DNA of 64,000 nt from Bacteroidales bacterium (GTDB taxonomy: Bacteria > Bacteroidota > Bacteroidia > Bacteroidales > UBA1402), in assembly GCA_017464285.1 (NCBI GenBank), contig JAFUDT010000009.1, forward strand, positions 1-64,000, written 5' to 3'. Numbering within the stretch: the stretch's first letter is position 1; each line of letters starts with the position of its first letter. The position numbers and the translations under genes were made by a program. The notes under the pieces were generated by a model that saw only the letters and a list, made by a program, of their open reading frames with translations, was not told the origin of the DNA and made no database searches. Below, one piece after another: positions 7,227 through 26,093 of this stretch.

Positions 7227-7703
7227 TTACAAGTTATTTTTCCTCCAAAAAACACTGGTGATATCCGTCAGTGTCAGGTTCGGCTCTACGCGGTAGAGAT
7301 GCTGATTGGTGGAAGGTTTGTTCAAAGGTCCCTGTGCCTCGATATACGGACCCAGCTTGACATAGTTGAACCACTGCAGGGGAAAGCCCTCCGGCAACTG
7401 GCTCCGACCCGAGTACCATGCCGTTTTGAGCGGTGTTTCCCGGCCGGAATGAAGATATTCAGCCAGGCGGGCCACCTCAAAGGGCGTACGGTCGCCCCCC
7501 ATGAAACAGACACAGGTGATACCGCGGCCATACCGATCCAGCAACAGCTCCAACGACTGCTCGTTGAGTTCATAGCCCACATCTTCCATAAGGTAGGCGC
7601 TATGACAGCCCGGACAGTTGTTGGGACAGTGTGAAATATTGAGTGCCAGGCTCACTTCGCCTGGCACTTCCTGAAAAACAATATCGAAATCGGCGTACTT
7701 CAT
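7227..7703 (-). CDS. nrdG: Anaerobic ribonucleotide reductase activating enzyme NrdG
   Basis: This is a radical-SAM protein of 158 residues that installs the glycyl radical on NrdD. The [4Fe-4S] motif CX3CX2C appears as NCPNNCPGCHS near residue 31, with the later Gly-rich SAM-binding stretch CVCFMGGDRTPFE. The start at 7703 (MKYADFDIVFQEVPGEVSLA) is one base after the nrdD stop; the longer frame to 7760 would overlap nrdD. The pair is clearly co-transcribed with nrdD first. Length and motif are normal for the family. It works only without oxygen, which supports an anaerobic host. Confidence 0.93.
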   Translation of the reverse strand: MKYADFDIVFQEVPGEVSLALNISHCPNNCPGCHSAYLMEDVGYELNEQSLELLLDRYGRGITCVCFMGGDRTPFEVARLAEYLHSGRETPLKTAWYSGRSQLPEGFPLQWFNYVKLGPYIEAQGPLNKPSTNQHLYRVEPNLTLTDITSVFWRKNNL

Positions 7704-7704
7704 G

Positions 7705-9837
7705 CTATACTCCGCTGGCCATGGCTCCGGTCGGGATATTGACAGCCGGTCCTCCGGCATAATAACGACGCTTGGCCTCCTCCTGACGAGCTTGCGAGAA
7801 GTTGCTGATACGCTTCATGTAACCGATGATGCGGGTCAGATAGTCGAGATCCTTGCTGCCGCAATGGGGGCATTCGTGCAGATAGCGCTTGTCGATGTGA
7901 CCGCACTGGTTGCAGACTGTGTTGGGAATGTTGAAGGTGAAATAGTTGCAGCCTTCGACGGCAGCTACACGCAACAGCTGGCGATACTGCTCCTTGCTCA
8001 GATGCTCCTCGAGATTCATGTGCAAGGCCGAACCGCCGGTCAGGTGCTCGATATACTTGCGGCCGTGCAGGCGGAACTTGTCCAAGACATTGAGCGAAGT
8101 GTCCTCGACAATGTAGAAATAGCTGTTGTAGCAGTCACGGGGCACATAGTAGTGGTCTTCCTTGTCCCATTTAGCGTGCTTGACACCAACATTTTCGGCC
8201 GGAATCATTTCGCAGTTGAACAGGATATCCTTCGTGCGGTATTTCTTGTTGTACTCCTCGACCAGTCCCAGCACCTCCTGGACAAACTGCACATACTTGG
8301 GATTGTCGTTGATTTCGATACCCAGGAACTGGGCGGCTTCGACCAGGCCGTTGACTCCGATGGTCAGGTACTGGCGGCTGATATTGATGAAGCCCGAGTC
8401 GAACAGCGGCAGCATACCCTTGGCCTGCAGGGCCTTCAGATTCTCGTTGTAGCCGAGCTGTACCTTGTGTGCCAAGTCGATAACCTCCCGCAGGAAAGTC
8501 TGATACGGCATACCAGACTTGACGGCATGCTGGATGCAGCGGTTCAGGTTGATGGTCAGCACACTCTTAGATCCGGTCGAAACACCGCCGGCACCCAGGG
8601 TGTAGCTGAAGCCGTTGTCCTGGATCTCGTTGCGCAGACGGCAGCAGGAAGCCAGCGAGTCGGCATTGTCACTCATATAGGTGAAGAAGGAATGTCCTTC
8701 GGCATACATTTCGGCCGTGAAGTCACCGTATTCCTTGTCGAGCACATCACCGTCCTTGGACAGCAGAGCCATGGTCTCGACCGGGAAGGTCAGCACGGCC
8801 TTGGTGCGTTCCTGGTTGAACCATTTCATAAACCGTTTCTGCAGCCAGGACAGGGATTCCCAGTGGGGCTTGCTTCCGTTCGGGAAGACAAAGTCGCTGA
8901 AAATACTCTGGAAGTAATACTTGTCGTAGTAGGAGATATTCCAGAAAACTGCCTGGAAGTTGCGGGCGCCGGTCGGCTGGTTGATCGAATAGACAATCTG
9001 TTCGAAATGGTCGCAGATGACTTTGTCTATCGTACGGTGACGATTGGACATATCCACCACCTTGTCGGCATTCAGATAATAGTCCTCGCCATATTCCAGA
9101 CCGATGAAATAGTTCATGTACATCAGGAACTCGGGCGTGGCACAGGCACCGCTCAGCATACTGGAGACAATGAATACCATATTGATGAAGCCTCCGCAGA
9201 AAGACTTCAAATTGGTGGGCGGGGTGGAATTGCCGCCTATGGCCTTGGTTCCGCCGATCAGCCAGGGATACATGGTAATGCTGGCGCAGTAGTTGGCCAG
9301 GTTGGTCTCGTCGTTCTTGTAGAGAAAATGGTTCTTGAGCAGTTCAATATAGCGGTCGGAAAGTTCCTTGCCGTACATTTCCTTGAGACGGTCGGTGAGC
9401 AGACGACGGTTCAGGCGGATGAAGTTGGACTTGGGCAGTTCGCCGATGAGCGTGGCAATGTTCTTTTTGTCCACATTGGCATTGGCATCATATTTACTGC
9501 CGGTGGCCGCATTCGAGGCATTGCAGTAGTTCATCAGAAACTCCAGCTTGTCGCGCGTTTCCCGGTCGTCGCTGTGACGCTTGCGATAGAGCATGAAAGA
9601 CTTGGCCACGGAATAGTAACGCTCCTGCATCAGGGCAATTTCCACCTGGTTCTGCACCTCTTCGACAGTGATACCGTTGTAGATGTTCAGGTGACTGAGG
9701 ATGGAGGTCATGATCTCCTGAGTGGCAAAACAGTTGACCGAAAGGAATGCCTTGGCAATGGCATTCTTGATTTTGTCGATGGAAAACGGCACTTCCTTTC
9801 CATCACGCTTGACGATGTAAATTTCTGCGGAACTCAT
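7705..9837 (-). CDS. nrdD: Anaerobic ribonucleoside-triphosphate reductase NrdD (class III)
   Basis: The enzyme reduces ribonucleotides to deoxyribonucleotides for DNA synthesis without oxygen. An ATP-cone regulatory domain opens the protein (YIVKRDGKEVPFSIDKIKNA). The body contains conserved reductase stretches such as NLKSFCGGFINM and LASCCRLRNEI, then the C-terminal zinc site (CNQCG with CPHCG) and the glycyl-radical motif TRIIGYMKRIS. At 710 residues it has normal length and no missing key residues. It is followed by nrdG one base later. A -7 box (TATATTTG) lies about 70 bases upstream. Confidence 0.97.
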   Translation of the reverse strand: MSSAEIYIVKRDGKEVPFSIDKIKNAIAKAFLSVNCFATQEIMTSILSHLNIYNGITVEEVQNQVEIALMQERYYSVAKSFMLYRKRHSDDRETRDKLEFLMNYCNASNAATGSKYDANANVDKKNIATLIGELPKSNFIRLNRRLLTDRLKEMYGKELSDRYIELLKNHFLYKNDETNLANYCASITMYPWLIGGTKAIGGNSTPPTNLKSFCGGFINMVFIVSSMLSGACATPEFLMYMNYFIGLEYGEDYYLNADKVVDMSNRHRTIDKVICDHFEQIVYSINQPTGARNFQAVFWNISYYDKYYFQSIFSDFVFPNGSKPHWESLSWLQKRFMKWFNQERTKAVLTFPVETMALLSKDGDVLDKEYGDFTAEMYAEGHSFFTYMSDNADSLASCCRLRNEIQDNGFSYTLGAGGVSTGSKSVLTINLNRCIQHAVKSGMPYQTFLREVIDLAHKVQLGYNENLKALQAKGMLPLFDSGFINISRQYLTIGVNGLVEAAQFLGIEINDNPKYVQFVQEVLGLVEEYNKKYRTKDILFNCEMIPAENVGVKHAKWDKEDHYYVPRDCYNSYFYIVEDTSLNVLDKFRLHGRKYIEHLTGGSALHMNLEEHLSKEQYRQLLRVAAVEGCNYFTFNIPNTVCNQCGHIDKRYLHECPHCGSKDLDYLTRIIGYMKRISNFSQARQEEAKRRYYAGGPAVNIPTGAMASGV

Positions 9838-9905
9838 TTTTAGCTTATTATTGGATTACTTTTTAACAATTCCTCTACCTGCACGTGTTATGGAAAACAC
9901 GGTTG

Positions 9906-18638: not shown

Positions 18639-21314
18639 CTATTTCCCCTTGATAATCCGCTTGATGTCACTCAGTTTGTTGAGTGCCTCCAAGGGTGTCA
18701 GGTTATTGACATCCAGGTTTTTGATTTCATCCCTGATCTGAGACAGCACAGGATCGTCCAGCTGGAAAAAGCTCAACTGATAACCTTCACGTTGACTGGC
18801 CAGTCCGTTGACTGGTTTGACGGCCAGGCTTCGGGCATCCTGCTCTGCTCCCTGACTCTCAAACTGCCGGAGTATATCATTTGCCCTGTTGACAATACTC
18901 TGGGGCATCCCTGCCATCTTGGCGACATGAATACCAAAACTGTGCTCGCTCCCTCCTTTGACCAATTTACGCAAAAACAACACCTTATTGTCTGCCTCCT
19001 TGACCGAGACATGGTAATTGCGAATCCTGGAAAAAGACTTTTCCATTTCGTTCAGTTCATGGTAATGGGTGGCAAACAGGGTTTTTGCCCGGTATTTCGG
19101 ATGTTCGTGGATATATTCGACAATGGCCCAGGCAATGGAGATGCCGTCATAGGTACTGGTACCCCGTCCAAGTTCGTCAAACAGCACCAGGCTGCGGTCG
19201 GACAAGTTGTTCAGGATGTCGGCTGCTTCGGTCATTTCTACCATGAAAGTGGATTCGCCCAGTGAAATATTGTCCGAAGCTCCCACCCGGGTGAAAATCT
19301 TGTCCACCAAGCCGATTTTTGCAGCCTCTGCAGGCACAAAGCATCCTATCTGAGCCATGATGACTATCAGGGCCGTCTGACGGATCAGGGCCGACTTACC
19401 CGACATATTCGGTCCGGTAATCATCAATATCTGTTCAGAAGAACTGTCAAGATGAATATCATTAGCGATATATTTTTCCCCGTCCGGCAGTTGCTGTTCG
19501 ATGACCGGATGACGGCCTGACTTGATGTCAATCTGGTCTGTCGTCAGGATTTCAGGACGGAAATAAAGATTCTTTTCCGAGACCTCTGCGAAAGAAAGCA
19601 GACAGTCGAGTTGGGCCACCACCACAGCATTCCTCTGTATCACGGAAATGTAGCAAACCAAATCCTCCATTAAGGACGCAAACAGCCCGCTTTCCAAATC
19701 GGAAATACGTTCTTCGGCTCCGAATATTTTTTCTTCATATTCCTTGAGCTCAGGCGTGATATAACGTTCGGCATTCACCAGGGTCTGCTTGCGTATCCAG
19801 TTTTCCGGTACCCTGTCTTTGTAGGTATTTCGCACCTCAATATAGTACCCGAATACATTGTTGTAACTTATTTTCAGGCTGTTGATACCTGTCCTTTCTG
19901 TCTCGCTTTCCTGCATCCGGCGAAGATAGTCCCTGCTCGATGCGGACAAATCGCGCAATTCGTCCAATTCAGCGTTGACCCCACGACGAAAAACCTCTCC
20001 CCGGTTCACGGCAATAGGCGGATTGTCAACCAGTTCTCTTTCTATTCTTTGAGTAATATCGCTGCAGGCATCAAGTTGTGCCGTCAGTGACAGCAGGTCT
20101 GCTGCTGCTTCTTCTCCGTCAAACGCGCTGTCCGCTTGCCGGAGATAGGAAACGATTTCACCCACAGCCTTCATGGAGTTCTTCAGATAGACAACATCGC
20201 GAGGCGAGGCCCGACCGACGGAAATCTTGGAGACGATACGCTCCAGGTCTCCCACCATGGCAATACGCTGGTTCAGAAAAGTCCTGAAATCGGCATTCTT
20301 ATAAAAGTATTCCACCACATTCTGTCTGGAAACAATGGCTGCAGCATCCTTCAAAGGAAACAGTACCCAACGACGAAGCAGACGGGAGCCCATGGCGGTT
20401 TGGGTATGGTCGATGATGTCGAGCAGGCTTTTTCCGCCTTCATTGATTGTGTGGCAAAGCTCAAGGCTGTTGATGGTATAGCGGTCCAGTCGCACGTACT
20501 TGTCTTCCTCGATACGGCTCAGTGTCTGGATATGCCCCAACTGCGTATGCTCGGTCATATCCATATAATACAGGACCGATCCGCTGGCTATGACGGCCAA
20601 TGTCATCTGCTGCAGACCGAAACCCTTCATGTTTTTAGTCTGAAACTGTTTTGTCAGACGGTTAACAGCAGAATCCTCGGTATATACCCAGTCTTCCATT
20701 TCGAAACGGGAGCCGGTGTAATGAAATCTATCGGTAAAAACAGCTCTCTTACTTCGTTCGTACAAGACTTCCTTTGGCATAAAAGATCCCAGAAGTTTGT
20801 CTATGTATTCAAAACTTCCCTCAGCTGTCAGGAATTCCCCTGTGGAGATGTCCAGAAACGCTATTCCCGCCCGGTTTTTTTCTATATGGATTCCGGCAAG
20901 AAAATTATTTTCGCCGATGCTGAGTACAGCATCATTGGTAGACACTCCTGGTGTTACAAGTTCTGTCACTCCCCTTTTGACCAGTTTCTTGGCTTTTTTC
21001 GGATCCTCCAACTGGTCACAGATAGCCACACGCTTCCCGGCCCTTACCAATTTGGGCAGATAGGTATCTAGTGCATGATGTGGAAAACCTGCCATTTCTA
21101 TCTTTCCAGCCGGTCCGTTGGATTTGGCCGTCATGGCAATATTGAGGATTTCTACCGCAACGACGGCATCCTGTCCGTATGTTTCATAAAAGTCTCCTAC
21201 CCGGAACAACAGAACTGTCTCCGGGTATTTTGCCTTTACTTCAAAATACTGTTTGATCAACGGGGTGTCTGATATATCTTTTGCCACTGCCTCTTTAGTT
21301 ATATTCTCTGTCAA
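18639..21314 (-). CDS. mutS: DNA mismatch repair protein MutS
   Basis: The 891-residue protein detects mispaired bases and recruits MutL. The N-terminal mismatch-binding domain has the phenylalanine wedge context ([16 protein letters not shown], normally GxFYE). The connector, lever and clamp regions follow, then the ABC-type ATPase with Walker A ([14 protein letters not shown] near residue 630), Walker B ([13 protein letters not shown]) and the closing ATHYHEL. The C-terminal dimerisation segment is present. It appears intact. A TATTTTTG box lies about 90 bases upstream. Codon use is more AT-rich than at 10-18 kb. Confidence 0.97.
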
Positions 21315-23189: not shown

Positions 23190-26093
23190 TTAATGAGCTT
23201 CTAACCAATTACTGCCCACGCCGACATCGGCTTTCAAAGGAATGGATAAATGAACAGCATTCTCCATATTGTCAGTGACAATTCTCTTGACTTGTTCGAT
23301 TTCCTGTTCTGGAACGATAAAGTTCAGTTCATCGTGGACTTGAAGTATCATTTTGGTTTTCAGTCCTTGTTTGTTCAAATCACGATAAATATTGACCATG
23401 GCTATCTTAATGATGTCGGCTGCAGTGCCCTGGATAGGTGCATTGATGGCGTTACGTTCGGCATAACCTCTTACTACGGCGTTATGGGAAACAATGTCTG
23501 GCAAATATCGTTTACGGTGGAAAATTGTTTCTGTGTATTTTGTTTCCTGGGTCTTTTTAATGGCATTGTCCATATATTCCTTCACCTTTGGATAGGTTTG
23601 GAAGTAGCCTTCAATCAGTGATTTTGCTTCTGCTCTGGGTACATTCATCCGGGTAGCCAGTCCGAAGTTGGAAATACCGTAGATGATGCCGAAATTGGCC
23701 GTTTTTGCCTTTCGTCGCATATCTGATGTAACTTCATCAAGTTTTACTTTATAGATTTTTGCCGCTGTTGCCTGATGAATGTCATGGTCCTCGGTGAAAG
23801 CTTCTATCATATTTGGATCTTGACTCAGGTGAGCCATTATTCTCAATTCTATCTGAGAGTAGTCGGCCGAGAGGAATACTTCGCCCTTGTCGGCAGAGAA
23901 AACTTTTCTCATTTCTTTGCCCATTTGGTCGCGAATGGGGATGTTCTGCAAATTCGGATTACTCGAACTTAGGCGACCGGTAGCGGTAACCGTCTGATTG
24001 AAAGAGGTGTGTATTTTGCCGGTCTGAGGATTAATCAGTTGGGGAAATGCATCGACATAAGTACTGAGTAATTTGTTTATACCTCTATATTCCAGTAGTT
24101 TACCTATGATAGGATGATTATTTTTGATACTGGTGAGAAATTCTTCCGATGTAGAGTATTGCTTGGTTCCTTTTGTTTTCTTCACCTTGTCGGTCACTTG
24201 CAGTTTTTCAAACAGGATTTGACCGGCCTGTCTGCTGGAATTGATATTGAAACGTTCTCCTGCCAGGAGGTAGATATCTTCTTCTATTTTTTTTAGTTCT
24301 TCCCGAAGCTGGGTAGAGTAAGCCTTCAGGGCTTCGGTGTCGATACTGACACCTGTCAGTTCCATGTCGGCCAATACATAAACCAGAGGCAATTCTACCT
24401 GATAGAAAAGGTATTGCAGTTGTTCCTTTTCAATTTGTTCTTCAAGTAGTGGTTTCAACTGCCAGACGACATCGCTCTGTTCGGCGACCAGAAGGGTTGT
24501 CTCTTGGGCGGAACCAGACCGATAGTGGAGATAGTTGGCTGCCAGTTCTTCAATGCTGTGTTTCACTTCCGTCTGAAGCAGATAGTGTGCTATCATTGTA
24601 TCAAACACGAGTCCCTGCAGCCTGATGCCATATCGGTACAGCACCATGATATCAAACTTGAGATTATGTCCGACTTTTTCTGTCAGTTCATCTTCGAAGA
24701 AAGGACGCAGATCCTCCAGCATCTTTATACAGTTTTCCCGACTGGCAGGACAAGGGATATACCAAGATTCGTGCGCATGAAAGGTAAAGGATATTCCGAC
24801 AAGATCTGCCGTCATGGCATCGGTTGTGCTGCACTGCGTCTTAAAACTGCATTTTTCCTGTACACGGAGTTTCGATAGAAAAACGTGTTTTTTTTCTTCA
24901 TTATCAATGATATAATAATTGTGTTCAGTCGATTTTAAGTCTTTGAGATTTGGCTGCGCAAAAACACTCGGGGAGTCGGATTCGATTATTCCAGTGAAAA
25001 GGCTGTCTGAAACAAGGTTCTCGCTCTGTACGACTGCCGCTTGGGCTGCTGTTGGCACTGACTTGTCCTCGACTTCTTGAACGGAGTCCCAAAGTGATAG
25101 TTGCTGCTGATTATCTTTCTGGGCAGACAAATTCGGGTTACTGTCATTTTTAAAAACAATTTTACCATGTGTCGGCGTTATGATCGTGGCTGCTTGCGCC
25201 GTCGAAGGATTTTCATACGTTGCTGTTGCGCTTTTGCGTCCTATCCATGATCTGAACTCCAGCCGCTGAAAAATTGCCTTCACTTTTTCCTCATCCCGGG
25301 CAGTAACCAACAAATCTGTTTCTTCGAATTCAACGGGAACATCAGTACGGATGGTAGCCAGAAAATGCGAGAAACGGATCAAGTCTTTATTCTGTTCGAT
25401 TTTTTCCTTGACAGATCCTTTCAATTCGTCGGTGTGTTCCAGAAGATTGTCCACATGACCGAACTGTGCAATCAGCTTTTGAGCCCATACCTTGCCTATT
25501 CCAGGGCATCCTGGAATATTGTCGGAAGCATCTCCCATCAGGCTGAGCAGGTCTATTATCTGTGAGCTTTCCTTGATACCGTATTTTTCGCATACCTCTG
25601 CCGGACCAAGGATGTCGAAATCGGATGAGCCATAGCGCGGTTTATAGATGAAAGCATGTTCGCATACCAGTTGTCCATAGTCTTTGTCGGGCGTCATCAT
25701 ATAGACATCAAAGCCCTTTTCAACGGCCTTTTTCGATAGTGTTCCAATTACATCGTCAGCTTCGAATCCAGGGACTTCTAAAATGGGAATATGATAGGCC
25801 CTCAGTAATTCTTTGATAAATGGGATCGACCAGCGGATGGTCTCAGGCGTTTCCTCCCTTTGTGCCTTGTAGGCTTCGTAGGCTTCGTGACGGAAGGTTT
25901 TTCCGCTAGGGTCGAAGGCAACAGCCAGGTGGCTTGGATTTTCCTTTTTCAGCACATCCTCCAAGGTATTCAAAAAACCGAAAACAGCTGAGGTATTCTC
26001 CCCTTTCGAGTTGATTCTCGGATTTTTGATGAAGGCATAGTAAGAGCGGTAAATCAATGCATAGGCATCCAGCAGGAATAATCTTTTTCTCAT
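23190..26093 (-). CDS. polA: DNA polymerase I with a degenerate proofreading site
   Basis: The 967-residue protein has all three Pol I regions: 5'-3' exonuclease (FEADDVIGTL, GDASDNIPGCPGIGKVWAQKL), the 3'-5' exonuclease-like domain, and the polymerase with motif A (DYSQIELRIMAH), motif B (RRKAKTANFGIIYG) and motif C (QVHDEL). In the proofreading domain the Exo I motif, normally DxE, reads FKTQ: Lys418 and Gln420 replace Asp and Glu, while the Exo II Asp is kept (GHNLKFDIMVL). Proofreading is therefore probably absent. A non-conserved linker of about 100 residues (around 300-400) separates the first two domains. The gene starts at 26093, with a -7 box about 25 bases upstream. Confidence 0.96.
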   Translation of the reverse strand: MRKRLFLLDAYALIYRSYYAFIKNPRINSKGENTSAVFGFLNTLEDVLKKENPSHLAVAFDPSGKTFRHEAYEAYKAQREETPETIRWSIPFIKELLRAYHIPILEVPGFEADDVIGTLSKKAVEKGFDVYMMTPDKDYGQLVCEHAFIYKPRYGSSDFDILGPAEVCEKYGIKESSQIIDLLSLMGDASDNIPGCPGIGKVWAQKLIAQFGHVDNLLEHTDELKGSVKEKIEQNKDLIRFSHFLATIRTDVPVEFEETDLLVTARDEEKVKAIFQRLEFRSWIGRKSATATYENPSTAQAATIITPTHGKIVFKNDSNPNLSAQKDNQQQLSLWDSVQEVEDKSVPTAAQAAVVQSENLVSDSLFTGIIESDSPSVFAQPNLKDLKSTEHNYYIIDNEEKKHVFLSKLRVQEKCSFKTQCSTTDAMTADLVGISFTFHAHESWYIPCPASRENCIKMLEDLRPFFEDELTEKVGHNLKFDIMVLYRYGIRLQGLVFDTMIAHYLLQTEVKHSIEELAANYLHYRSGSAQETTLLVAEQSDVVWQLKPLLEEQIEKEQLQYLFYQVELPLVYVLADMELTGVSIDTEALKAYSTQLREELKKIEEDIYLLAGERFNINSSRQAGQILFEKLQVTDKVKKTKGTKQYSTSEEFLTSIKNNHPIIGKLLEYRGINKLLSTYVDAFPQLINPQTGKIHTSFNQTVTATGRLSSSNPNLQNIPIRDQMGKEMRKVFSADKGEVFLSADYSQIELRIMAHLSQDPNMIEAFTEDHDIHQATAAKIYKVKLDEVTSDMRRKAKTANFGIIYGISNFGLATRMNVPRAEAKSLIEGYFQTYPKVKEYMDNAIKKTQETKYTETIFHRKRYLPDIVSHNAVVRGYAERNAINAPIQGTAADIIKIAMVNIYRDLNKQGLKTKMILQVHDELNFIVPEQEIEQVKRIVTDNMENAVHLSIPLKADVGVGSNWLEAH

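Follow-up and report, generated by a model that had tools for sequence, protein, structure and literature searches.

The DNA polymerase I encoded in the window (the whole stretch of Bacteroidales DNA that was analysed, 64,000 nucleotides long) is, in all likelihood, an ordinary PolA1 whose DnaQ-like 3'-5' exonuclease site was inactivated once its lineage had parted from that of the nearest species sampled; what remains is a structural spacer, folded but catalytically dead. Its gene is the sole family A polymerase gene found in the genome assembly (G000), with one place matching PF00476. A single chain carries the FEN-like 5'-3' nuclease, the exonuclease fold and the family A polymerase that make up a PolA1. 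The Pfam bit scores are 540 for the polymerase profile PF00476 and 190 and 105 for the 5'-nuclease profiles PF02739 and PF01367, and the match to the 3'-5' exonuclease fold PF01612 is weak, with 73 bits. Residues were mapped by alignment with Escherichia coli K-12 PolA as the reference. The features are as follows, with identities given to L003, the Pol I of the sister genome G004:

23190–26093, minus strand: polA, DNA polymerase I (PolA1), 967 amino acids, recognized with Pfam profiles
25239–26093, minus strand: FEN-like 5'-3' nuclease domain, residues 1–285, conserved (92% identity, acidic residues invariant)
24930–25238, minus strand: disordered linker, residues 286–388 (47% identity; AlphaFold2 pLDDT below 50 over 285–387)
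25086–25103, minus strand: motif QLSLWD resembling beta-clamp-binding motifs, residues 331–336, found by sequence match (Q331 invariant and L334 nearly so in a 16-row alignment)
24414–24929, minus strand: vestigial 3'-5' exonuclease domain, residues 389–560 (60.5% identity to the intact L003 domain; fold pLDDT about 90)
24834–24845, minus strand: Exo I motif FKTQ, in which D355 has become K418 and E357 has become Q420 (alignment to E. coli PolA)
24651–24653, minus strand: Exo II Asp481, equivalent to E. coli D424 and kept (alignment)
24477–24479, minus strand: Exo III position, where Gln539 replaces D501; the equivalent of Tyr497 is gone in a 19-residue deletion just upstream (alignment)
23193–24413, minus strand: polymerase domain, residues 561–967, with intact motifs (89.7% identity; motifs A, B (O-helix) and C invariant)

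A preliminary description of this DNA had read Exo I as FKTQ, with Lys418 and Gln420 replacing the metal-binding Asp and Glu, and both the E. coli alignment and the codons (TTT AAG ACG CAG for F417, K418, T419 and Q420, from 24845 to 24834 on the minus strand) bear this out. It was also right that the Exo II Asp and all polymerase motifs remain: D481 aligns with D424, the polymerase keeps DYSQIELR, the O-helix R793-K797-F801-Y805 and QVHDE, and none of the 16 aligned sequences departs from these O-helix residues, D744, H920-D921-E922 or the acidic residues of the 5'-nuclease. Although its account of Exo I and Exo II was correct, it overlooked the destruction of Exo III. The five DEDDy positions D355/E357/D424/Y497/D501 read K, Q, D, deleted and Q, so the site is not intact, and the protein has, by its residues, the substituted DEDDy site in a retained domain that marks an exo-inactive PolA1. 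An intact DxE lying elsewhere was looked for in the alignment of the exo domain and is absent, which leaves the predicted lack of 3'-5' editing standing. The site has no Exo III Tyr and retains a single one of its four metal carboxylates, which supports this prediction; on established DEDDy chemistry that carboxylate, Asp481, would not suffice for a two-metal site, with trace activity still possible. That the domain retains some nuclease activity, or an altered one, by using other ligands (K418, Q420, D481 and acids close by) is in our opinion very improbable. This would fit the retention of Asp481 and of the fold, and an exo domain that evolves more slowly than the disordered linker, but besides the missing ligands the Exo III helix lacks its beginning, and the residues lost differ among relatives (SASYK, SKEFQ and others at the five positions), with no new conserved set.

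The preferred reading, that of a dead but folded domain, agrees with the AlphaFold2 model built with 16 related sequences. The exo domain is predicted with confidence (pLDDT about 90), the linker at 285–387 is disordered, and a weak spot at 528–530 coincides with the site of the deletion. Foldseek comparisons of the exo-polymerase part gave TM-scores of 0.89–0.91 for Bst Pol I and, by target, 0.87 for Klenow, both Bst and Taq Pol I being close structural matches. We read the exo domain as a spacer whose site is dead, like that of Bst. The Pol I enzymes of Bst and Taq have a naturally exo-dead RNase H-like domain that serves as a scaffold, and the retention of such a domain is what the window Pol I shares with them; their losses are old and clade-wide, whereas that of the window Pol I is fresh, and the remnant of its site still has one carboxylate beside the deletion of 19 residues.

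The sister genome allows dating of the loss. L003 is 81% identical to the window Pol I over its length and has a perfect DEDDy site (FDTETT, in the columns where the window Pol I has FKTQ, HNIKFD and YAAEDAD). By region, the identity is 91.9% in the 5'-nuclease, 47% in the linker, 60.5% in the exo domain and 89.7% in the polymerase. A relative-rate test with the intact L005 as outgroup placed 29 exo-domain changes on the window branch and 8 on that of L003 (p = 0.00075), and the same outgroup gave 7 vs 7 for the FEN domain and 10 vs 11 for the polymerase. When three intact outgroups were required to agree, the exo counts were 19 and 2 (p = 0.0002). As dS was near or past saturation, we used dN alone together with the relative-rate tests instead of a dN/dS ratio; between the window Pol I and L003, dN is 0.28 in the exo domain, 0.51 in the linker and 0.05 in FEN, with FEN and polymerase in the range 0.05–0.06. 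The loss is recent and real, and the relaxation is limited to the exo domain and the window branch because the rate excess falls there only. The exo dN lies between those of the linker and FEN, and therefore constraint on the domain is not zero; a structural role or DNA binding may persist.

The same data lead us to reject an assembly or sequencing error, or a decaying pseudogene, as the source of the substitutions, since conservation differs by domain. The genome is indeed a draft, with 20 contigs and 83.5% completeness. However, 967 codons are open, the FEN and polymerase domains are 90–92% identical to the sister with dN of 0.05–0.06 at near-saturated dS, and the gene is single copy with its polymerase and 5'-nuclease catalytic residues intact. 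Moreover, the changes consist of dispersed substitutions together with deletions that keep the frame, which is expected if the remainder of the protein is under selection.

A real loss of this kind is not restricted to the window. The GTDB family was sampled with 13 species genomes from three genera. In the window's genus, the site is lost in G001 and G003, whose five DEDDy positions spell SANYK and SASYK; it is lost also in genus g2 (SKEFQ and SQEYQ), and genus g3 is intact. On a tree of the polymerase domain only, the window Pol I and L003 are joined at 99, the lost pair L004 and L008 is their sister, and g3 lies outside. This arrangement points to at least three independent losses within the family, if regain is excluded. 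A single ancient family-wide loss followed by regain of the site through recombination in G004 and genus g3 would account for losses in two of the three genera, but we consider it very unlikely: the exo domain of L003 is nearest to that of the window (60%), its identity to L005 (54%) is close to that between L005 and L011 (55%), as fits vertical descent, and excess change is found on lost branches only.

Repeated independent loss, which we prefer, is also seen beyond the family. On a 128-sequence tree (almost all from Bacteroidota, with E. coli and an Ignavibacterium added; a quick tree with SH-aLRT support only), at least 19 changes of exo state are needed. An exo-domain profile matched 288 of the 295 genomes in an evenly drawn Bacteroidales sample, and the motif is lost in at least 33 of these 288, from 16 families; this number is a minimum, as low scorers and the family Pol I were read individually and higher scorers mostly by profile score, and G099 (NKDYN) has lost its site despite a fairly high score. 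In Pol I from other orders and classes of Bacteroidota, the exo site was intact in 25 of the 25 read. The loss in the window Pol I is thus one of many independent losses in Bacteroidales.

It is also a frequent, already known kind of event. Timinskas et al. (2026) found substituted DEDDy sites in about half of bacterial PolA1 (PMC12926913). Most of these enzymes come from Firmicutes, Tenericutes and Actinobacteria; their occurrence bears no relation to genome size, and they are enriched in anaerobes. Their inactive class has the same make-up as the window Pol I (FEN, exo fold and polymerase with DEDDy substitutions); the window case differs in belonging to Bacteroidales, in being very recent and in being one of several losses in one small family. 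Recurrence in this largely anaerobic order fits the reported enrichment. Purified Helicobacter pylori Pol I, a bona fide Pol I, was shown biochemically to have no proofreading (PMC3121766), as is predicted for the window enzyme. H. pylori has no translesion polymerases, whereas the window genome has two Y-family loci. It is possible, though we think it rather unlikely, that the loss was adaptive, with an editing-deficient Pol I that extends mismatched or damaged ends and so provides, as shown for that of H. pylori, one more polymerase for translesion synthesis and mutagenesis. That precedent, the recurrence (at least 19 state changes and at least 33 of 288 genomes) and the enrichment in anaerobes favour it, but dispensable Pol I editing predicts the same pattern, and the domain decays in a relaxed manner. 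Y-family polymerases occur in exo-intact and exo-lost family members alike, with no complementary loss; their presence or absence gave no contrast that would suggest compensation among family members, several of whose genomes are incomplete.

Under the reading that we favour, of an ordinary PolA1 with a dead exo site, the window Pol I would be incapable of editing without its metal ligand sets. Primer removal and gap filling would continue through the coupled action of the 5'-nuclease and the polymerase, that is, nick translation without editing, because the residues of both are kept and those of the exo site are lost. The misinsertions of Pol I would be left to mismatch repair, and a MutS gene is present in the window at 18639–21314. 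Bulk replication would be proofread by a separate DnaQ: the assembly has an intact DnaQ-type exonuclease (FFDLETTG, HGAEADT) directly adjoining dnaN, and replicative proofreading should therefore persist. One of the two Y-family loci of G000 (L210, C10:429529-429963) has one in-frame TGA and may be a pseudogene or reflect a sequencing error or a wrongly read start; a 417-residue open frame in this region carries QTDLFD. Elsewhere in the window, a 713-codon open frame (7702–9843, plus strand) lies antisense to the 710-residue anaerobic ribonucleotide reductase NrdD (7705–9837, minus strand); it has no Pfam match and is probably a by-product of codon usage. The polymerase domains of the window and G004 enzymes are about 90% identical and their editing sites differ, which makes the pair an unusually clean contrast. 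It could serve to compare the mutation spectra of two close relatives and so show what Pol I proofreading does to them.

The linker between the FEN and exo domains holds a second feature, which is possibly a new by-product of this analysis. The motif QLSLWD, in the context NQQQLSLWDS, agrees at four of five positions with the clamp-binding consensus QL(S/D)LF (PMC11139829) or Q-phi-x-[LM]-[FL], position 5 being Trp. A Phe-to-Trp change at this position has been reported to weaken binding by the internal motif of E. coli Pol III alpha (PMC11139829). Among 129 linkers of Bacteroidota Pol I, 94 hold the pattern Q-x-x-[LMI]-[FWY], whereas shuffling gives 3.6 expected (maximum 9 in 200 shuffles); these being related sequences, the figure expresses enrichment over composition and not 129 independent cases. 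A count of all three-residue patterns, none of them picked in advance, ranked Q..LF and its parts at the top (Q..LF 82 vs 1.7 expected), with the positional make-up Q-[GLPT]-[SD]-L-F-[DG]. The motif is found in L003, L005, L009 and many other loci, as QLDLF in L004 and L008 of the window's genus, in 10 of 10 Pol I from Bacteroidia outside Bacteroidales, and in some other Bacteroidota classes. Its core is unchanged between species pairs whose linkers are otherwise 47–66% identical. It is absent from E. coli Pol I, the controls outside Bacteroidota being E. coli and a few other loci.

Clamp-type motifs are present elsewhere in the genome, at the C-terminus of DnaQ (QQTLF), in a Y-family polymerase (QTDLF) and in MutS (QLSFF). 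The DnaE of G000 (L176, contig 13, an open frame of 1206 residues) has no Q..[LMI][FWY] motif; a few Bacteroidetes DnaE1 without a recognizable clamp motif have been described (PMC3919608). E. coli Pol I binds the clamp, and the 2024 clamp review gives no motif peptide for it (PMC11139829). In the 2026 survey, Actinobacterial PolA2 is presented as the first case of a clamp motif in an A-family polymerase (PMC12926913), and we found no report of such a motif in Bacteroidota PolA1 in the open-licence literature. PolA2/APEX resembles the window Pol I in having a dead 3'-5' exo domain and, within a disordered part of the protein, a clamp motif of the QxxLF type, which in the window enzyme is putative (PMC12926913). 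However, PolA2 lacks FEN and its motif sits in a loop of the remnant exo domain, whereas the window PolA1 has a conserved FEN domain and the motif in the FEN-exo linker; this type of linker motif is also found in exo-intact relatives.

The window motif probably ties Pol I to the sliding clamp, QLSLWD being the putative docking site on beta, a step of which we are less certain than of the loss of editing. For the phylum, we lean towards a clamp-tethered Pol I, with a conserved Q-x-[S/D]-L-F clamp motif in the disordered FEN-exo linker that would be the first mapped in a PolA1. If the motif binds the clamp, it is a defined recruitment handle for Pol I of the whole phylum, and such a tether would explain the recruitment of Pol I to Okazaki fragment ends in Bacteroidota.

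The motif is kept in most exo-lost lineages, the window included. In its loose form it occurs in 36 of 44 exo-lost and 79 of 81 exo-intact Pol I (raw association, Fisher p = 0.004); we set aside a link between exo loss and motif loss because supported branches yield only 6 independent pairs. Some exo-lost Pol I of the families f9 (L129, L142, L147 and L169) and f101 (L128, L130 and L157) have a linker shrunk to 18–31 residues and miss the strict motif, unlike most exo-lost lineages, with L129 retaining SLFE. Six Gastranaerophilales Pol I (L073, L074, L077, L078, L084 and L088) carry QLGLF; in their exo domain, Exo I and Exo III are intact and the Exo II Asp is replaced by Glu (KYEIN), so that activity may be kept or altered.
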